Source: Puniceicoccaceae bacterium 5H (GTDB taxonomy: Bacteria; Verrucomicrobiota; Verrucomicrobiia; Opitutales; Oceanipulchritudinaceae). From it: a stretch of DNA of 64,000 nt. The stretch spans positions 1-64,000 of the forward strand of contig WOUP01000002.1 in assembly GCA_009772895.1 (NCBI GenBank), given 5' to 3'. Under the pieces are notes generated by a model. That model made no database searches. It saw only the letters and a list, made by a program, of their open reading frames with translations, and had not been told where the DNA came from. Shown piece after piece: positions 34,612 to 43,911 of the stretch. How positions within the stretch are numbered: position 1 is the stretch's first letter; each line of letters starts with the position of its first letter. Both the position numbers and the translations under genes were made by a program.

Positions 34612-37200
34612 CTAGTTGGCGACGACGTTGAGGATCTTGCCCGGCACGTAGATCACCTTGCGCACGGTCTTGCCCTCGAGGTGGGGGGCTACCTTCGGAT
34701 CGGCCTTGGCCTGTTCGAGCACCTGGGCCTGGGTGGCGTCCTTGGCCACCATGGCCTCGCCGCGCGGTTTGCCGTTGATCAGCAGGCCGATCTTGACCTC
34801 CGCCGACTCGAGCAGGGCCGCGTCGTATTTCGGCCACTGGGCCTTGGCCACGGTGCCTTCGCCGCCGAGACGCTGCCACAGCTCTTCGCTGATGTGCGGG
34901 CAGATGGGGGCGAGCAGTTGCACGAAAGCGCGTGCTGTCGAGGCCTGCACGGTCTCGGCCTTGGCCACGTGATTCATGAAGATCATCATCTGGCTCAACG
35001 CGGTGTTGAAGCGCTGGTGCTCCATGTCGTCGCCGACCTTCTTGATCGTTTCGTGCAGGAGCTTGAGCGTGTCCTTCTGCTCTTCGCCCTCGTCCTGGAC
35101 CTTGGAATTCACCGCACCGTCGCGGCCGGCGAACTCGTTCCAGACCTTTTGCAGGAAGCGGAAGACGCCCTTGATGCCGTCGGTCTTCCACGGCTTCATG
35201 TCGTCCAGCGGCCCCATGAACATCAGGTAGGCGCGCAGGGCGTCGGCCCCGAACTCCTGGATGTAGTCGTCGGGGTTGACCACGTTGCCGCGGCTCTTGG
35301 ACATCTTTTCGCCGTCTTCGCCCAGGATGATGCCCTGGTGGTAGAGGCGCAGGAAGGGCTCCGGCTCTTTCAGCACGCCGATGTCGACGAGGAACTGGTG
35401 CCAGAAGCGCGCGTAGAGCAAGTGCAGGGTCACGTGCTCGGTGCCGCCCATGTAAAAGTCGACGCTGCCCCAGTAGTCGCGGATCTCCGGCGCGATGAGC
35501 TGCTCGGTGTTCTTGGGGTCGAGATAGCGCAGGTAATACCAGCAGCTGCCGGCCCATTGCGGCATCGTGTTGGTTTCACGGGACGCGGGCACCCAGGCGT
35601 CGCCTGCGGGCTGCGTCTCGGTGCGGCTGACAGTCTCGCCCGTCTCCAGGTTGAACCACACGTCGACCCATTCGGTGACCTTCGAGAGCGGGCTCTCGCC
35701 GGTGCCGCTGGGCTTGTAATTCTCCGTCCTGGGCAGCACGAGCGGCAGTTGCTCCGCCGGGATCGGCAGCGCGTAGTAGGTCTGGCCGCCGTCTTCGTAA
35801 GAGACGGTTTCCTCCGGCATGTCGCGGGCGACCACGCCGCCCAGCTCCCTGGCCTTGCGGTAGGCCGCCTCGTCGACAAAGACGATGGGGAAGGGCTCGC
35901 CCCAGTAGCGCTGACGGCTGAAGAGCCAGTCGCGCAGGCGGTAGTTGACCTGCGCCTCGCCGCGCTGGTGCTGCTCCAGCCATTTGATCATGGCCTCCTT
36001 GGCCTCGGCGATCTGCAAGCCGTTGAGGAAATCGCTGTTGATGCAGGGGCCGTCTCCGGTGTAGGCCTTGCCGGTGAAGTCCTCCGGCGGTTGCACGGTG
36101 CGCACGATCGGCAGGTCGTAAGTCTCGGCAAAATCCCAGTCGCGCTCGTCCTGCGCCGGCACAGCCATGATCGCGCCGGTGCCGTAGCTCGCCAGCACGT
36201 AGTCGGCGATCCAGATGGGCACGCGCTTGCCGTTGACGGGGTTGATCGCGTAGCTGCCGGTGAAGACGCCCGTCTTGATCTTGGCCAGCTCGGTGCGCTC
36301 CAGGTCGCTCTTCTTGGCTGCGGCCTCGATGTAGGCGTCCACCAGTTCGCGCTGGTCGCCGGTCGTCAGCTGCTGCACCAGTTTGTGCTCGGGCGAGAGC
36401 ACCATATAGGTGACGCCGAAGAGGGTGTCGGGCCGGGTGGTGTAGACCTCGATCTTCGCGTCCTGCTCCTCGATGTCGAACACCACTTGCGCGCCCGTGC
36501 TGCGGCCGATCCAGTGGGCCTGCTGCTTCTTGGACGATTCGGGCCAGTCGAGCTTTTCGAGGCCTTGCAGCAGCTTTTCGGCGTAGGCGGTGATGCGCAG
36601 CACCCATTGGCGCAGGTTTTTGCGCACCACGGGGTGCCCGCCGACTTCGCTCTTGCCGTCGATCACTTCCTCATTGGCCAGCACGGTGCCGAGCTCGGGG
36701 CACCAGTTGACCGGCTGCTCGCTGACGTAGGCCAGACCGTGCTTGTAGAGCTGCAGGAAGATCCACTGCGTCCACTTGTAGTAGATCTCGTCGGTGGTGT
36801 TGATCTCGCGGTCCCAGTCGATGGCGAGGCCCAGCTTGTTGAGCTGACGGGTGAAGGTGGCCACGTTGCGCTGGGTCGTCACGCGCGGATGCTGGCCGGT
36901 CTTGACCGCATACTGCTCGGCGGGCAGGCCGAAGGCGTCCCAACCCATCGGGTGCAGCACGTTGTGGCCGGTTGCCCACTTGTAGCGCGCGATGACGTCG
37001 CCGCCGGTAAAGTTTTCAGCATGGCCGGCGTGGAGACCCGCCCCGGAAGGGTAGGGATACATCTCCATCACATAATACTTGGGCCGCTGGGTGTCCCCGT
37101 CGATCGCCTTGAAGGTCTTTTCCTGCGCCCACTGATCCTGCCAATGGGCTTCGATCGCGGTAAAATCGTAGTCTTTGCACTGCGTGGCCATATCGCTCAT
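34612..37200 (-). CDS. leuS: leucyl-tRNA synthetase
   Basis: Charges tRNA-Leu. The 862-residue class I enzyme has MYPYPSGAGLHAGHAENF with the HIGH-type HAGH at residues 57-60, the editing domain with VYTTRPDTLFGVTYM and GTGAIMAVPAQDERDWDF, the YWGEPFPI region, and EKMSKSRGN (KMSKS loop). The C terminus ends with the GKTVRKVIYVPGKILNVV domain. The codon at 37203 is TTG, so ATG 37200 is the likeliest start; ATG 37191 (MATQ) is also possible. It is monocistronic and convergent with dtd. Confidence 0.97.
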   Translation of the reverse strand: MSDMATQCKDYDFTAIEAHWQDQWAQEKTFKAIDGDTQRPKYYVMEMYPYPSGAGLHAGHAENFTGGDVIARYKWATGHNVLHPMGWDAFGLPAEQYAVKTGQHPRVTTQRNVATFTRQLNKLGLAIDWDREINTTDEIYYKWTQWIFLQLYKHGLAYVSEQPVNWCPELGTVLANEEVIDGKSEVGGHPVVRKNLRQWVLRITAYAEKLLQGLEKLDWPESSKKQQAHWIGRSTGAQVVFDIEEQDAKIEVYTTRPDTLFGVTYMVLSPEHKLVQQLTTGDQRELVDAYIEAAAKKSDLERTELAKIKTGVFTGSYAINPVNGKRVPIWIADYVLASYGTGAIMAVPAQDERDWDFAETYDLPIVRTVQPPEDFTGKAYTGDGPCINSDFLNGLQIAEAKEAMIKWLEQHQRGEAQVNYRLRDWLFSRQRYWGEPFPIVFVDEAAYRKARELGGVVARDMPEETVSYEDGGQTYYALPIPAEQLPLVLPRTENYKPSGTGESPLSKVTEWVDVWFNLETGETVSRTETQPAGDAWVPASRETNTMPQWAGSCWYYLRYLDPKNTEQLIAPEIRDYWGSVDFYMGGTEHVTLHLLYARFWHQFLVDIGVLKEPEPFLRLYHQGIILGEDGEKMSKSRGNVVNPDDYIQEFGADALRAYLMFMGPLDDMKPWKTDGIKGVFRFLQKVWNEFAGRDGAVNSKVQDEGEEQKDTLKLLHETIKKVGDDMEHQRFNTALSQMMIFMNHVAKAETVQASTARAFVQLLAPICPHISEELWQRLGGEGTVAKAQWPKYDAALLESAEVKIGLLINGKPRGEAMVAKDATQAQVLEQAKADPKVAPHLEGKTVRKVIYVPGKILNVVAN

Positions 37201-37723
37201 CAAGTAAAGCGGCCAGCTTGCGTGCCCGTGCGGGAGAGGTCAACGCCGGAGGGCAAGGATCGCAACCGCGGGTGTGCACGGTGGTTTTGCTGGATGATTG
37301 CAAAATGCTTTATTGCGCCGACCTCAGTCATGCAATTAACCGAAATCCGCTGATTTAGCTGGCTCAGGGAGGTTCAGGAGGTTGCACCCCGCGATGCGAT
37401 CCGGTCGAAGATTCAGTTCCGATCCCATAAATCCTGTAGCAGAACGTTCATGTGTAGGGGCTCGCCCTGCGCCGCGAAGGCCCTTTCCCCGGGGTTGGGC
37501 GGCTGGTACAGGAACCGCTAGAACGGGTCAAATTGATCTGAGGCCGATACAAGGCTTTATTTGCGAAAAGCTTACAACATTCGAGCTGTCTAGCCGCGCG
37601 TTTGTCTTCGACGAATGGTCGTGGGTGTGAGCGCATGGTTTTCGAAATTGGCAGACTTTTGGCTAGGGTTTCAGACCTAGTCTTATCGCGGGGGCTTTCG
37701 GCCCTCCGCTACATTCCAGTGTC
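37201..37723. other. long intergenic region upstream of the zinc-ribbon trio
   Basis: These 523 bases hold the leuS promoter region and the leader of the first zinc-ribbon gene. A strong bulged hairpin (GCGGGGGC with GGCCCTCCGC, 37688-37709) lies about 15 bases before the ATG at 37724. A short CTAGG/CCTAG inverted repeat lies near 37661-37678. An 82-codon plus-strand frame at 37382 has no ribosome site and unconvincing composition. I see no RNA gene. Confidence 0.4.
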
Positions 37724-38008
37724 ATGAGCATTCAACGCGAAATCCAGAAACGCCGCTGGCGTCAGTTGCTGCTGCTGGCGATCGTCTTACCGGCCCTGAC
37801 CCTCTTTGTCTCACACGAATTGGGGCTGCACGTATTCCACTTGCCCAAAGCGGGCGTCTTCAGCCTCGCCTTTCTGTTTGTCTGCGGCGGCGCCATCCTT
37901 ACCGCCAGTAACTGGCGCTGTCCCGTGTGTCGGACGTATCTCGGCGGGTCGATCAACCCGGAGCGCTGCCGGGGGTGTGGACGCCGTCTGCGCGGTGTGG
38001 GTGATTAG
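37724..38008 (+). CDS. small two-helix membrane protein with C-terminal zinc ribbon, copy 1
   Basis: A 94-residue protein: a basic N terminus (about residues 5-13, QKRRWRQ), two hydrophobic helices (about 14-32 and 45-62), then a CPVC...CRGC zinc ribbon (about 67-87) and a basic end. It is the first of three tandem genes with the same design. The ribbon is expected on the cytoplasmic side if both ends are inside. No named family is recognised. It could act as an anchored adaptor or sensor. It stands 143 bases before copy 2. Confidence 0.7.
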   Translation: MSIQREIQKRRWRQLLLLAIVLPALTLFVSHELGLHVFHLPKAGVFSLAFLFVCGGAILTASNWRCPVCRTYLGGSINPERCRGCGRRLRGVGD

Positions 38009-38151
38009 CGTCATGAGCAACGGTTTGGGGTAAGACTGCGTTCTCAAAAACGGTGAGGAGCGCGGTATTTCGCTTGCAGTCAGGGCCTGAACAGGCGAAC
38101 GTAACAGGCCGCGCCTGCGCGGACGCCTACCCCAGCCCCTATTTTCGTTTG

Positions 38152-38445
38152 ATGAACACGCAGACCTTGAACGTGAAGCGGAAGTTCGAACGACGCCGCA
38201 AGTGGTTTCTGATCCTGCAGCTATTGTCGTTCACGGTCTTTCTGTTGCTGTTCGTGGTCGACCCCGGGGATTCGCTCCTGCCGGGGGTATCGAGCTCGCT
38301 GATCCTGTCGATCATCCTGGGCGTCCTGTTGCTCAACCCGATCCTTTCGCTCCTGATCTGGCGCTGCCCGTCTTGCGGACACCTGCTCGGGCGCTCCTGC
38401 AACCTCAAGCACTGTCGCCACTGCGGGGTGCGACTCGAGGAGTAG
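38152..38445 (+). CDS. small two-helix membrane protein with C-terminal zinc ribbon, copy 2
   Basis: A 97-residue protein with a very basic start (KRKFERRRKW), two helices (about residues 18-34 and 45-64) and a CPSC...CRHC ribbon near the C terminus, preceded by WR as in copy 1. ATG 38152 is chosen because residues upstream in the frame (from 38053) are not hydrophobic or conserved. The WRCP-(V/S)-C...C-R-x-C-G-x-R-L pattern shared with copy 1 points to gene duplication. Function unknown. Confidence 0.7.
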   Translation: MNTQTLNVKRKFERRRKWFLILQLLSFTVFLLLFVVDPGDSLLPGVSSSLILSIILGVLLLNPILSLLIWRCPSCGHLLGRSCNLKHCRHCGVRLEE

Positions 38446-38521
38446 AGGGGCGCGATAAGGGCTTGCCGTTTCGCCGTCGCCCGTTGACGGTTGGGAGACG
38501 GGCGCATGGGGCGTCCGCGGC

Positions 38522-38842
38522 ATGATGGATAACCCAGCGGCTTATAGAAAGCGCAAGCGACTCGAGGGCAGGGTGCAACTCGCGATGGGCCTGCTCGTCG
38601 TGCTGGCGACCGTCTACATGGCGACGGCCGACCGCTGGCTGCCCGGTTTGCCCGAAGGACTCGCGCAGGTGTTGCGCGCGACGGTGCCGTATCTCGCTTT
38701 GCTGGCGGTGGTCATTTGTGCGGCCTTGCTCGACTATGCTGGACGCTGCCCCGCCTGCCAAAAGCGCGTGCGCGGCCACGACCCGGCGACCTGTCCCCAA
38801 TGCGGCGCGCCCCTCCACGATTCGGCCCGGAGCTCCGACTGA
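38522..38842 (+). CDS. small two-helix membrane protein with C-terminal zinc ribbon, copy 3
   Basis: A 106-residue protein of the same build: basic N terminus (YRKRKRLEGR), two helices (about residues 20-36 and 53-70), and CPAC...CPQCGAPL at about 76-97. It is more diverged than copies 1 and 2. Only 76 bases separate it from copy 2 and 9 bases from the next membrane gene, so this end of the cluster is an operon. Confidence 0.7.
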   Translation: MMDNPAAYRKRKRLEGRVQLAMGLLVVLATVYMATADRWLPGLPEGLAQVLRATVPYLALLAVVICAALLDYAGRCPACQKRVRGHDPATCPQCGAPLHDSARSSD

Positions 38843-38851
38843 CTTTTTCTC

Positions 38852-39214
38852 ATGGCAATCATTCTCGCGGTTTTTATGGCGATCGTCGCCCTCGATACCA
38901 TGCGCAAGCGCGCCCGACTGCGCCAGATGGCGGACTCGCCCCTCAGCAAGGCGAGTCCCGAGCAGTTTCAGGAATGGCGCGGCTACGAGACCCTGGCGCT
39001 CAAGCGGTTGATGATCGGCTGCAAGATCTTCTTCTTCATCTGCGTGCCGCTCAGCTTAGTGCTGCCGCAGCTGACGAGTCCGGAGCTCCAGCGGGGCGTC
39101 ATGCTCGTGATCCTGGCTGGCTTGCTCGGGGTGGTGGTCTTCGCCGCCCTGCACCTGCAACCCGCGATCAAGGCCCGCAAGCTGCGCAAGCAGTATCACA
39201 TTCTCTTTGTCTGA
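38852..39214 (+). CDS. small membrane protein of unknown function
   Basis: A 120-residue protein with an N-terminal hydrophobic segment (residues 1-14), a basic stretch (MRKRARLRQ), then two longer helices (about 54-72 and 82-101). It has no cysteine ribbon. It begins 9 bases after zinc-ribbon copy 3 and is probably co-expressed. No family is recognised. Because it sits last in the cluster and lacks the ribbon, it could be a partner of the zinc-ribbon proteins. Confidence 0.6.
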   Translation: MAIILAVFMAIVALDTMRKRARLRQMADSPLSKASPEQFQEWRGYETLALKRLMIGCKIFFFICVPLSLVLPQLTSPELQRGVMLVILAGLLGVVVFAALHLQPAIKARKLRKQYHILFV

Positions 39215-39232: not shown

Positions 39233-39850
39233 TTACGAAGACGGCACCAGGCGCGAGTCGTCCAGGTCTGGGTGGTCGGACTGGCCCAACAGTCGATGCG
39301 GTGACAGTGCGTAGAGGATGGCGGCGGAGAGGATCAGCAGGGCGCCATCCAGTTCCACCAGTTCTTCGAGGAAGGGGTGGTGCGTTTGCTCGAAGAGCGA
39401 GCCCAACACCAGCAACGCACCGCCGCCGATACAAAACAGCGCGATCCGCGTGCGCACGATGGTCCAGAACTCCCGCAGGTGCTGCCGATAGGTGACGCCA
39501 AAGCGCACGATCAGCGCGAGAAAGGCGAAGGCCAGCAGCAGGTCCTTGCTCGTGCCACCGGTGAAGAACTTCACGACCTCGGGCAGATTCAGCTCCGCCA
39601 TGTCCACTTCGCGCAGGAAGAAGGTCAGGCAGGCGAGCGAAAAGGCTGCCCCCAGCCACCGCTCGAAGCGCTGCACATGCAGCAGCCCCCAAAGCGCGCA
39701 GAAGAAGCCGCCCGCGTAAAAGCAGGCCTGCAGATTCTCGATCAGCTCGTTCTCGGCGTAGAGCTCGGAGCGTCCCTGCAGCATTACCTCTTCAATCAGA
39801 ACGCCGTTCAGCAGCAGAACGGCGAGGATGGCAAACGTGTTATTGATCAT
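39233..39850 (-). CDS. multi-pass membrane protein of unknown function
   Basis: A 205-residue protein with about six hydrophobic helices, acidic loops (ELYAENELIENLQ, REVDMAELNLPEV) and a polar C-terminal tail. ATG 39850 is preferred over the GTG at 39898, because it starts directly before the first helix. No enzyme motif is seen. The upstream region has an unusual set of palindromes (39882-40006), so the gene may be tightly regulated. It is convergent with the zinc-ribbon cluster, 18 bases from its last gene. Confidence 0.6.
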   Translation of the reverse strand: MINNTFAILAVLLLNGVLIEEVMLQGRSELYAENELIENLQACFYAGGFFCALWGLLHVQRFERWLGAAFSLACLTFFLREVDMAELNLPEVVKFFTGGTSKDLLLAFAFLALIVRFGVTYRQHLREFWTIVRTRIALFCIGGGALLVLGSLFEQTHHPFLEELVELDGALLILSAAILYALSPHRLLGQSDHPDLDDSRLVPSS

Positions 39851-39881
39851 GACTTGAGTGCGCTTTCGTGCCGCGGCGGAA

Positions 39882-40006
39882 TGTGACGCAGTTGTCACAA
39901 TTCCGTTGCACGACTGAGACAGAAATCGCTTTCAAGCCGTATCAAACTGTCAGAATCGCTTTAAATCAAACGATTGTATGTAAAATGTTATCTATCTTTT
40001 TACATA
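39882..40006 (-). promoter_or_regulatory. AT-rich control region with palindromes and direct repeats
   Basis: Upstream of the membrane gene at 39850 lie TGTGAC/GTCACA (39882-39899), an 18-base palindrome resembling a CRP-type site but with an 8-base spacer between TGTGA and TCACA, a direct repeat AATCGCTTT at 39924 and 39954 (30 bases apart, about three helical turns) and a perfect inverted repeat TATGTAAAA/TTTTACATA (39977-40006). A second TTGTCACA is at 40041. The AT content is far above the window norm. This looks like a regulated promoter, but no factor can be named. Confidence 0.4.
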
Positions 40007-40137: not shown

Positions 40138-40163
40138 TGAAAGGAGGGGCGTTGGTGCGTGGG

Positions 40164-43136
40164 CTAGCCCTGTTTGGCCAGCTTTTGCTCGGCTGCCTGG
40201 ACGATGCGTTGCTTCAGCGCTTGCACATCAGTGTCGAGCAGCTCCTGCGGATCGACGGGGTTCGGGTGGATCGGCGGCAGGGTGTCGAGCTGGTCGTTGA
40301 GCACCAGGTTGCGGTTCGCGGCTACCTCGTCGATGCGGTCCGTAGGCTGGAAGAGCGGCACGACCTGCAACACCTCCGGATGGTCCTGAACGATTTCGCC
40401 GATGGCGAGCACGGCCTGGCTGAAGCGGTCGAGCTCGGCCTGCGTAAAGCTTTCCGTCGGCTCGATCATCACGCCAAAGGTCTCGGGCCAGGCCACGGTG
40501 GGGGCGTGATAGCCGAAGTCGAGGAACAGCTTGCCGATGCGGGCGATGACGGCCGCCTTCGCGATACCGGCTTCCTCGAGGCGTTTGAAGTCGGCCTCGC
40601 TCAGCGTCATGATGAACTCGTGCATGCGCTTTTCTTCGCTGCCGGCGGGCAGGAGCGGGAAGCGTTTTTGCACATCCTGCATGCAGTAGCGGGCGGCGAG
40701 CACGGCCACGGCAGACATGCGGCGCACGCCCTCCTTGCCGAGGCGGCAGAGGTAGGTGTAGGCGCGCACCTTGTGGCCGAAGTTGCCCCAGTGACGGTGG
40801 AAGCGGCCGATGCTGTGCTGCGGATTGACGGTGACGAACTTGTCGCCGCGCTTCTCGATCTGCACCCCGGGCAGGAAGCTCTCGAGCGCGGAGCTGACGG
40901 CGACGAAGCCGTCGCCCGGACCGCCGCCGCCGTGGGGGATGGACCAGGTCTTGTGCAGGTTGTTGTGCACCGCATCGACGCCCAGCGCACCGAGGTCGAC
41001 CCAGCCCGCGATGGCGTTCATGTTCGCGCCGTCCATATAGACCAGGCCGCCGGCGTCGTGAACCTTGTCGGCGATTTCCTTGAACTTGCGCTCGAAGAGG
41101 CCCGTGGTGTTGGGATTGGTGACCATGATGCCGGCCAGGTTGGCACCGTGCTTCTCGATCTGGGCGTCGAGATCCTCATCGTCGATCAGGCCGTTTTCAC
41201 CGCTCTTGAGCAGGGCCAGGGTGCAACCTGCCATGCTGGCGGTGGCGAAGTTCGTGCCGTGGGCGGAGGCGGGGATCAGCAACACCTTGCGGTGGCCTTC
41301 GCCGCGGCTGCGATGGTAGGCCTGAAAGAGCTTGATACCGACCAGTTCGCCCTGGGCGCCGGCCACCGGCATGGTGGTGACGGCCGCCAGCCCGGTGATC
41401 TTGCGGAACCATTCCTGCGACTCCCACAGCACCTCCAGCGCGCCCTGGGCATCCTCGAGCGGCGTCTGCGGGTGCAGATCGGCAAAGCCCGGCAACGCGG
41501 CGGCCCAGTCGTTGAGGTAGGGGTTGTATTTCATGGTGCAGGAGCCGAGTGGGTAGATTCCCTCGTCGGGGCTCACGTTCATTTCCGCCAGCTGGCTGTA
41601 GTAGTCCTTCAGCTTTTCCTCGCTGTAGCGCGGCAGGGCGGGGGCCTGCTTGCGCTGGAAGGGCGCGGGAACCTTGGGCAAATGAGCGGAAGGCTGGGTG
41701 GGCTCGCCATAGCGCTGGGTAAAGAACGCCACGGCCTTGGCCACGACGTCGGTATCCTGGCGGTCGCTGGTGGAGAGCTTCAGCAATTGGCGTCGACCGC
41801 CGATACGTTCGCTGACGTCGACCCCCAGGTGCAGGCCGGCTTCGCGGGCGGCGGTCAACAGTTCGTCGACAGGCTCCGGCACCTCGAGCGTCACCTCGTT
41901 AAAGAACGGGGCCTCCTGGAATGCCGGCAGCACGCCCTGGAAGCGGGTCAGCTGTTCGTAGAGCTCGACTGCGATGGAGCGAGCCTGCCGCAGCATGGCG
42001 CCGAGGCCTTCGGCCCCGCGTTCGAGCATGGAAGCGCCGGCGAGGGTGGCGAGAAAGGCCTGGTTGGAGCAGATGTTGGAGGTCGCCTTCTCCTTGCGGA
42101 TGTGCTGCTCGCGGGTGCTCAGGACCATCACGCGGCAATCGCGGCCGGCCGCGTCCTGGCCCTTGCCCACATAGCGGCCCGGAGTGTAGCGGATGCTGTT
42201 CTTGCTCTTGTCGTTGTAGCGCACGCCAAAGAGGCCGAGGCCGGGGCCGCCGAAGTTGGGTCCGAGGGCGAGGTGTTGGGCTTCACCGACCATCAGGTTG
42301 GCACCGTCGGTGCCGAAAGCGCTGGGCTCCTTCAGGCCGTCCGGGCCGAGCAGCATGGGATCGACCACGGCGACGCTCTGCACCTTCAGCTCGGCGCACA
42401 AGTCGGTCATGGCGTCGACGTCTTCGAGCAGGCCCAGCGTGTTGACCTGCGGGAAGACGATGGCGCCGAGGCGCGGGCCCAGTTCTTCGGCCTTTTCACG
42501 CACGGCCTCGAGGGAGATGCGGCCGGTTTCCGGATCCAGCGGCACGCGCTCGATCGAGTTGTCGGTGTCGGCGATCAGGGTGTCGACGACTTCGAGGTCG
42601 GCCGGGTAGAGGCCGTCGCAGACAATAGCGACATCGGCCTTGCGCTGGATGCGCAGCGCCGTCGCAATGGCTTCGTAGAGGCCGCTGGCGCGGTCGTAAA
42701 GGGAGCTGTTGATCGCCTCGAAGCCGGTCAGCTGGGTCAACGCGCACTGGTAGATCCAGTGGCAGATCAGCGTGCCTTGCGAGCGCTCCGGCTGGTACGG
42801 CGTGTAGGAGGTGGTCAGCTTGCGCAGGCCCAACACGTAGGGCACGATGGGGCTGACGCTGAAGTGAGGCAGGCCGTCGCCCAGGAAGCCCGGCAGCACA
42901 TGGTTGCGTTGCGAGATAGCTTCCAGGTGCGCCGCCGTTTCCTCGTAGCCCAACTCCTCCGGCAGATCGGGCGCCTTGGAGAAGCGCACGTCACTGGGCA
43001 CGTGGGCGAAGAGGTCCTCGAGTTTGCTCAGGTTCAGCCGCTCCAGCATCGACTGGAGTTCGGCATCGCTCGCCGGCAGGTAGTGACGGTGCGATTCGCG
43101 GGGGAGGGCGGCGGGATCGTACGGAAGTTTGGACAT
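40164..43136 (-). CDS. gcvP: glycine dehydrogenase (P-protein), GcvPA-GcvPB fusion
   Basis: Decarboxylates glycine with PLP and passes the aminomethyl group to lipoyl-GcvH. The 990-residue protein fits a head-to-tail fusion of the two-subunit type. Residues 1-450 follow GcvPA: RHYLPASDAELQSML, LFAHVPSDVRF, YTPYQPERSQGTL. After a Pro/Ala-rich linker (about 455-495) the rest follows GcvPB: GIYPLGSCTMKYNPY, then NLHKTWSIPHGGGGPG with the PLP Lys730. Classic one-chain P-proteins read differently at both ends. ATG 43136 is chosen; 16 extra upstream residues are unlikely. No gcvT or gcvH is in the window. Confidence 0.93.
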   Translation of the reverse strand: MSKLPYDPAALPRESHRHYLPASDAELQSMLERLNLSKLEDLFAHVPSDVRFSKAPDLPEELGYEETAAHLEAISQRNHVLPGFLGDGLPHFSVSPIVPYVLGLRKLTTSYTPYQPERSQGTLICHWIYQCALTQLTGFEAINSSLYDRASGLYEAIATALRIQRKADVAIVCDGLYPADLEVVDTLIADTDNSIERVPLDPETGRISLEAVREKAEELGPRLGAIVFPQVNTLGLLEDVDAMTDLCAELKVQSVAVVDPMLLGPDGLKEPSAFGTDGANLMVGEAQHLALGPNFGGPGLGLFGVRYNDKSKNSIRYTPGRYVGKGQDAAGRDCRVMVLSTREQHIRKEKATSNICSNQAFLATLAGASMLERGAEGLGAMLRQARSIAVELYEQLTRFQGVLPAFQEAPFFNEVTLEVPEPVDELLTAAREAGLHLGVDVSERIGGRRQLLKLSTSDRQDTDVVAKAVAFFTQRYGEPTQPSAHLPKVPAPFQRKQAPALPRYSEEKLKDYYSQLAEMNVSPDEGIYPLGSCTMKYNPYLNDWAAALPGFADLHPQTPLEDAQGALEVLWESQEWFRKITGLAAVTTMPVAGAQGELVGIKLFQAYHRSRGEGHRKVLLIPASAHGTNFATASMAGCTLALLKSGENGLIDDEDLDAQIEKHGANLAGIMVTNPNTTGLFERKFKEIADKVHDAGGLVYMDGANMNAIAGWVDLGALGVDAVHNNLHKTWSIPHGGGGPGDGFVAVSSALESFLPGVQIEKRGDKFVTVNPQHSIGRFHRHWGNFGHKVRAYTYLCRLGKEGVRRMSAVAVLAARYCMQDVQKRFPLLPAGSEEKRMHEFIMTLSEADFKRLEEAGIAKAAVIARIGKLFLDFGYHAPTVAWPETFGVMIEPTESFTQAELDRFSQAVLAIGEIVQDHPEVLQVVPLFQPTDRIDEVAANRNLVLNDQLDTLPPIHPNPVDPQELLDTDVQALKQRIVQAAEQKLAKQG

Positions 43137-43248
43137 CAGTTGCGGTGGACTTTTCGAAGTTGCTTCGTGGCGGCGAAAGGTCATTCAACAAGCTTGCTTT
43201 ATCCGCAAGCCGGAACTGAAGATGACAGTTTCAGGCCGACTCTTTGCC

Positions 43249-43911
43249 ATGAACAAAAAGGAACGTGCTGCAATTGTCTACCAACAGCTCCAAGATTTCT
43301 GCCCAAAACCCATCATCCCATTAAGATATTATGATGCCTACTCATTGCTAGTAGCTGTGCTACTGAGCGCCCAGTGCACCGATGAGCGGGTAAATCAGGT
43401 GACGCCAAGGCTTTGGGAACTGGCGCGCACGCCGCAAGAGATGATGAAGATCCCGGAGGAGAAGATCCTGGAGATCGTGCGTCCCTGCGGACTGGGCCCG
43501 CGCAAGGCCAAAGCGATCAAGGAACTGTCCCGAATCTTGAGCGAGGAATACGGCGGTGAGGTGCCCCAGGAAGAGGCGCAACTCGAGGCGCTGCCGGGCG
43601 TCGGGCACAAGACGGCCGAGGTCGTGCGTGCGCAGGCCTTCGACATCCCGGCATTTCCGGTCGATACCCATATCCACCGCCTCGCCCAGCGCTTCGGCCT
43701 GACCAGTGGCAAGAACGTCGTTCAGACGGAGAAAGACCTGAAGGCGCTCTACCCGCCGGAGACCTGGGGCCATTTGCACTTGCAGTTCATCTACTACGGG
43801 CGCCAGCACTGCACGGCCCGCAAGAAGTGCGACGGCAGCACCGATGCCTGCCCGCTGTGCCCGATCGTCAACGCTGGTCGGAAGACGCCGCGCAAGACGA
43901 AGAAGGCCTAG
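43249..43911 (+). CDS. nth: endonuclease III (DNA glycosylase/AP lyase)
   Basis: Removes oxidised pyrimidines and cuts the abasic site. The 220-residue protein has the helix-hairpin-helix LPGVGHKTAEVV near residue 120, the catalytic Lys in it, and VDTHIHRL with the catalytic Asp near residue 142. Near the C terminus a four-cysteine cluster is present, but its spacing (C-x5-C-x6-C-x2-C) differs from the canonical C-x6-C-x2-C-x5-C. ATG 43249 is the natural start; the upstream frame overlaps gcvP. Divergent from gcvP, with the promoters in a 112-base gap. Confidence 0.92.
   Translation: MNKKERAAIVYQQLQDFCPKPIIPLRYYDAYSLLVAVLLSAQCTDERVNQVTPRLWELARTPQEMMKIPEEKILEIVRPCGLGPRKAKAIKELSRILSEEYGGEVPQEEAQLEALPGVGHKTAEVVRAQAFDIPAFPVDTHIHRLAQRFGLTSGKNVVQTEKDLKALYPPETWGHLHLQFIYYGRQHCTARKKCDGSTDACPLCPIVNAGRKTPRKTKKA

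Follow-up and report, generated by a model that had tools for sequence, protein, structure and literature searches.

Zinc ribbons anchored in the membrane are already known, and the hairpin-ribbon family described here is not presented as a new system. LITAF is a membrane-associated zinc ribbon in which a hydrophobic stretch lies between two Cys pairs. Rubredoxin and the C-terminal domain of rubrerythrin carry Cys knuckles in a short ribbon with W before the first knuckle, and in rubredoxin four Cys bind iron and a glycine follows both knuckles. LapB (YciM) of Escherichia coli is a protein of about 389 amino acids that acts with FtsH on LpxC. According to excerpts of its description, it combines an N-terminal membrane anchor and nine TPR motifs with a cytoplasmic C-terminal Cys4 domain that works by docking, and this docking joins the rubredoxin domain to the TPR repeats of the same protein (PMC8745692).

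The window analyzed here, a stretch of 64,000 nucleotides from Puniceicoccaceae bacterium 5H (contig WOUP01000002.1), encodes three small ribbon proteins (genes 1 to 3) and a fourth small membrane protein (gene 4). The ribbon proteins share with LapB a membrane anchor and a C-terminal Cys4 domain predicted to be cytoplasmic, and the rubredoxin-type domain of LapB (PF18073) showed weak profile similarity to 4 of the 8 members of alignment A6, which includes gene 3 and one look-alike (best E 0.0073). Unlike LapB as it appears in those excerpts, they have two helices, 91–102 residues and no TPR; for the window proteins (94–106 aa) no TPR model was found among the matches listed. LITAF-like PF10601 weakly matched 2 of the 8 members of A6 (best E 0.0054), whereas both Cys pairs here come after the hairpin, with 12 residues between them in all seven firm family members. 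Cys4 knuckles with a similar motif are also found in Pfam DZR_2 (PF18912), Zn_ribbon_3 (PF13248) and DZR (PF12773), but window scores were all below the cut-offs and these profiles of 26–56 positions are too short to cover the hairpin. Likewise, the knuckles in a short ribbon and the W before the first knuckle recall rubredoxin and rubrerythrin, but the scores fell below cut-off and the glycine after the first knuckle is mostly absent.

No Pfam or NCBIfam model scored above its curated cut-off for the four window proteins (for gene 3 in Pfam, among the matches listed), in agreement with the initial annotation, which knew of no described system with this build. PADLOC gave no match at E ≤ 0.1 for any of the four, and a defense system was rejected on this ground; in PHROGs the matches had E values of 0.004 or weaker. 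Fold searches with two weak models (mean pLDDT 68.5 and 72.5) returned nothing below E 0.001, and the best PDB profile match was ribosomal protein eS31 (E 0.02). At the level of titles and abstract openings, nothing in the literature searched was recognized as this family.

Gene layout and protein build beside leuS

Four open reading frames on the same strand lie within 37724–39214 (+), next to a divergent gene that, judged by its sequence, is taken to be leuS, encoding leucyl-tRNA synthetase:

34612..37203 (-), leuS, divergent neighbour of gene 1, present in 28/28 genomes searched
37688..37709 (+), nucleic acid hairpin lying 15–36 bases ahead of gene 1, found once in the genome and not in the sister species
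37724..38008 (+), gene 1, 94 aa, firmly placed in the family, with a predicted pair of membrane helices and a Cys4 ribbon at the C-terminus
38152..38445 (+), gene 2, 97 aa, of the family of gene 1 and its distant paralogue
38522..38842 (+), gene 3, 106 aa, plan like genes 1 and 2, no convincing relative in 89 genomes
38852..39214 (+), gene 4, 120 aa, predicted to have three helices, ribbon lacking

The genes are separated by 143, 76 and 9 bases; the length of gene 2 is counted from the ATG at 38152, its longest frame opening at a GTG at 38053. GC at third positions is 0.75–0.88 in the four small genes and 0.91 in leuS. The genes look real because of this resemblance to leuS and because homologues of genes 1, 2 and 4 exist. 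Two very long open frames are also present, at 34681–37353 (+, 890 aa) and 40152–43334 (+, 1060 aa); the former lies opposite the presumed leuS and the latter opposite what, by reading, is presumably a glycine dehydrogenase-like gene, and both are probably shadows of high-GC coding and not genes. A convergent gene at 39233–39898 (-) encodes a membrane protein of 221 aa, predicted to have four helices, for which neither a Pfam match at E ≤ 1 nor, in stretch L010 of the sister species, a homologue was found.

Open reading frames, Kyte–Doolittle profiles and Cys4 patterns agree with the common build first proposed for genes 1 to 3, each of which begins with a basic segment (net charge +4, +6 and +4), followed by two hydrophobic helices and a C-terminal CxxC…CxxC ribbon. 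The ribbon reads C-x2-C-x12-C-x2-CG in genes 1 and 2 and C-x2-C-x11-C-x2-CG in gene 3. In the AlphaFold model of gene 1, a weak one (mean pLDDT 68.5), helices at residues 3–34 and 42–63 are followed by a ribbon of short strands. The Cys4 pattern occurs nine times in stop-free frames of at least 60 codons in the window, genes 1–3 included, and is thus by itself not rare; the non-random feature is the adjoining of two family members, genes 1 and 2.

The strong hairpin reported before gene 1 was also recovered, with a fold of −16.5 kcal/mol on 44 nt (z −3.1) that 1 of 200 shuffles equalled. Three identities were rejected for it: a terminator (no terminator pattern), a repeat element (one copy in the genome) and a conserved leader (no counterpart in the sister species, whose upstream region folds no better than shuffles). 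At the gathering threshold, Rfam gave a single match in the window, a tRNA.

The family of genes 1 and 2

Genes 1 and 2 carry, besides the membrane hairpin, the signature WRCPxCxxxLG-x7-CxxCGxxL directly after the second helix, and on sequence evidence they are true relatives. A search of the whole genome with gene 1 returned three matches, namely itself, gene 2 (E 2e-6) and a locus at E 0.02, which was rejected as a family member with at most 0.8 bits against the family profile. The firm members amount to seven proteins in five genomes of one phylum:

genes 1 and 2 of the window
one protein in the sister species (G001)
one protein in L025/G715; L025 is a Kiritimatiellae MAG contig, JAGOHE010000015.1
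two adjoining proteins in G528, at L062 7386–7694 and 7771–8049
one protein in G754

The L025 protein came from a single scan of named genomes with narrow peptide patterns from three sequences, and L025 and G715 were counted once because their proteins are identical and both contigs have 22,200 bases. In leave-one-out scoring the seven members reached 50.4–118.0 bits (gene 1, 75.0; gene 2, 61.8), and the part before the ribbon reached 14.9–78.7 bits, which sets the family apart from a generic ribbon. A six-member alignment shows no variation in W-R-C-P-x-C, LG, the second CxxCG or the final L. The four cysteines and their 12-residue spacer are kept in all seven, as is the glycine after the second knuckle; that after the first knuckle is found in 2/7. 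Loss of the ribbon in homologues, which the initial annotation had named as a possible counter-finding, was thus not seen in the seven firm members, a result obtained with search profiles that include the ribbon, so that ribbon-less homologues could have escaped.

The family is sparsely distributed in the samples searched, which overlap between order, phylum and class; as the genome profile searches were confined to one phylum, its rarity may be overstated. Convincing or firm matches were found as follows: in the order, only in the own genome and G001 (7 of 372 genomes matched at E ≤ 0.01); in the phylum, in the own genome and G528 (6/387 at E ≤ 0.001); among relatives of G528, in G528 and G715 (3/116); in the class of G528, in G528, G715 and G754 (10/345); and in the own class, in the own genome alone (2/169). 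The remaining matches, many of them re-scored against the seven-member profile, were set aside. These comprised five of the seven in the order (E 6e-4 or weaker, 2.1–20.5 bits, none with the Cys4 pattern) and three of the five genomes found with gene 1 (E 0.004–0.009, 2.2–9.5 bits). Four of the six in the phylum were not firm: G425 is a look-alike, G563 scored 19.9 bits within a 204-aa protein, G520 scored 19.5 bits without Cys4, and the match in G519, which was also the one dropped among the three relatives of G528, sits inside a protein that reads as transposase-like. In the class of G528, seven of the ten were not firm (four look-alikes, in G773, G675, G902 and G854, and three inside larger proteins, in G733, G803 and G519), and in the own class G974 was dropped, with stops present and at most 4.2 bits. 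Ribbon relatives were found neither in viral_contigs with alignment A5, nor among phages with the L025 protein, nor among plasmids with the G528 and L025 proteins (L025 had one plasmid match, at E 9), and a phage or plasmid origin was rejected on this basis.

Tandem pairs occur in two of the five genomes and singles in the other three. Of the initial proposal of repeated duplication in place, the homology of genes 1 and 2 is supported, and the pair has a parallel in the adjoining members of G528; gene 3 as a duplicate is not supported, its 28.4 bits being like those of the look-alikes. A recent duplication giving rise to genes 1 and 2 is likewise unsupported by the tree, in which gene 1 groups with the G001 gene at 97% bootstrap and gene 2 stands outside. 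Because of this grouping the duplication may be older than the split of the two species, although the tree holds eight short sequences with one well-supported split, and long branches could produce the same picture. The ribbon proteins of the sister species and the window genome are 46% identical, against 87% for leuS; by this comparison the family evolves fast.

Gene 3, gene 4 and the gene neighbourhoods

Gene 3 scored 28.4 bits with the family profile, compared with 19.3 for the best of 300 segment shuffles with fixed Cys, and 3.1 bits without its ribbon; the signature W and LG are absent. Look-alikes at unrelated loci outscore it (G675, 29.2 bits; G425, 31.3; G773, 37.0), and two further proteins with a plan like genes 1–3 scored lower (G902, 23.8 bits; G854, 21.6). 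The look-alikes, with two helices followed by a Cys4 ribbon and weak similarity to the family, are located at:

L063:3477-3884 (-)
L085:5544-5831
L086:5540-5857 (-)
L074 and L076, near base 1480

Their Cys pairs are 16 (G773), 12 (G425) and 10 (G675) residues apart, and further apart in G902 and G854. Since these look-alikes stand at unrelated loci in the phylum, the plan is either wider than the firm family or arose repeatedly. Among 89 genomes, G001 included, gene 3 had no convincing relative (7/89 matched at E ≤ 0.01; six of the seven were dropped at E 2e-4 or weaker), nor any match at E ≤ 0.01 in the genome of the sister species. Its resemblance to genes 1 and 2 could, judged by these scores, reflect convergence on a common plan. 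A PDB profile search with the gene 3 ribbon gave 27 matches at E ≤ 10, the best being the designed C2H2 finger array Aart (E 7.5e-7, no single stretch passing alone), while a consensus zinc finger reached E 7e-4. C2H2 fingers bind via Cys2His2 and not Cys4, and these matches were therefore judged repeat-driven.

Gene 4 starts 9 bases after gene 3 and lacks the ribbon, as first described. With 2.3 bits against the family profile and no Cys ribbon it falls outside the family. Its only convincing homologue among 372 genomes of the order is in the sister species (5/372 matched, three of the five dropped at E 0.006–0.008), at 58% identity and with two helices above threshold compared with three in gene 4; viral_contigs contained no relative. 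From these comparisons, gene 4 appears to be a membrane protein unrelated to genes 1–3 and was seen beside ribbon genes only within this genus.

At the G001 locus, leuS is followed by a single ribbon gene, then by a hexapeptide-repeat acyltransferase (Pfam) and the gene 4 homologue; the ribbon gene and the homologue are 908 bases apart, and genes 2 and 3 are absent. The acyltransferase, at L010:10088-10756, stands where the window carries genes 2 and 3. No small ORF with the Cys4 pattern was detected at the 26 remaining leuS loci, examined over about 1.5 kb, where the pattern allowed 6–25 residues between Cys pairs (longer loops would escape), 4 of the 28 loci end at contig ends and L053 has almost no upstream flank. 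In four relatives (L034, L040, L043 and L051) the gene divergent from leuS resembles, by eye, an HtrA-type serine protease, so the spot beside leuS seems variable.

Elsewhere the ribbon genes have other company. That of G754 lies between genes that read as a beta-galactosidase-like gene and guanylate kinase. About 3 kb away, L084:9069-9407 (-) encodes a 112-aa protein with a seemingly reversed plan, two Cys pairs first and then hydrophobic helices (both by eye), which scored 1.2 bits with the family profile and had no Pfam match at E ≤ 0.001. Upstream of the G528 pair are a Band 7 gene (Pfam) and a gene of 128 aa that has no Pfam match, and after the pair come a short ORF and an aldo/keto reductase (Pfam); the 92-aa ORF beside the pair, at L062:8089-8367 (-), has by eye the look of a SelW/Rdx-type redox protein. 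The L025 gene precedes a large gene that reads as hydrolase-like. In the loci read, no partner was common to the ribbon genes, the three distant genomes having differing neighbours. The earlier idea of a local system is not borne out by these distant neighbourhoods or by the sister species, which lacks genes 2 and 3. The alternative it had raised, scattered singles without shared neighbours, is true of two of the three single-copy genomes (L025/G715 and G754) and not of G001, which retains leuS and gene 4.

Possible roles of the ribbon proteins

It is tentatively proposed, as the likeliest reading but one that may well prove wrong, that genes 1 and 2, and gene 3 by its build, encode docking adaptors anchored in the membrane, their ribbon on the cytoplasmic side. 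The protein is predicted to span the cytoplasmic membrane two times and to have both termini inside, the charges of genes 1–3 pointing to this side under the positive-inside rule. In G528b the first helix is below the Kyte–Doolittle threshold and in G528a the N-terminal stretch has net charge 0, so the predicted topology depends chiefly on how basic the C-terminal side is. The Cys4 metal ribbon would abut helix 2 and be held at the inner membrane face. Its metal would be zinc rather than iron, in a structural site, and the presence of the first-knuckle glycine in only 2/7 members leans to zinc. The ribbon would bind a cytoplasmic or membrane-bound partner and keep it at the membrane, and tandem paralogues may give slightly different specificities. 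Partner binding is suggested by what small ribbons generally do and by the parallel with LapB as described in the excerpted text. Against the adaptor stand the absence of a partner beside the genes in the loci read, the failure to find a relative of known function, the fast evolution of the family, and the lack in the ribbon proteins of TPR repeats, the docking partner within LapB in that same text. The missing functional link stands against adaptors and all rivals alike.

It is unlikely, though it suits the absence of common neighbours, that the proteins are small accessory subunits belonging to some larger membrane complex whose genes lie elsewhere, the ribbon serving as a structural clamp. 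Many small two-helix proteins have such a role, but presence is patchy (firm in 2/372 genomes of the order and 3/345 of the class of G528), and the ribbon gene would therefore be dispensable in most genomes.

Electron transfer by a rubredoxin-like iron center at the membrane seems rather improbable. The C-x2-C-x12-C-x2-CG spacing and the WRCPxC start resemble rubredoxin-like domains, and gene 3 scored 24 bits with an NCBIfam rubrerythrin-like domain (cut-off 32), gene 2 16.8 bits with the RCKP rubredoxin-like domain (cut-off 45), the L025 ribbon E 0.32 with rubredoxin 9w1v and the gene 3 ribbon E 1.5 with rubrerythrin. Nevertheless, each of these matches either falls short of its cut-off or lacks significance, 5/7 firm members have no glycine after the second Cys, and by reading no redox partner was recognized as a common neighbour, the aldo/keto reductase gene lying near the G528 pair.

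Metal handling at the membrane, with the protein buffering, sensing or chaperoning zinc or iron, is improbable: a Cys4 site beside a membrane hairpin, small size and tandem copies would suit it, but no transporter or metal regulator was recognized by reading among the neighbours, and ribbons usually serve as structural sites that bind very tightly. For a four-gene local system, the 9-base gap between genes 3 and 4 and the ribbon gene and gene 4 kept beside leuS in the sister species are outweighed by the absence there of genes 2 and 3, the acyltransferase gene in between, the 26 leuS loci without a ribbon gene and the other neighbours in three distant genomes, and it is considered very improbable.

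Beyond the adaptor reading proper, a highly speculative extension would have the hairpin-ribbon family multiply in tandem, its paralogues forming a mixed assembly that recruits cytoplasmic proteins, with gene 3 and the look-alikes as diverged branches and gene 4 as a membrane partner.

At present, genes 1 and 2 belong to an orphan family without a known role, a small one that Pfam and NCBIfam miss above cut-off and that has no convincing match in PHROGs or PADLOC. Its compact build of hairpin and ribbon is simple enough for laboratory testing, and should the ribbons recruit proteins, they would count as very small adaptors at the membrane.
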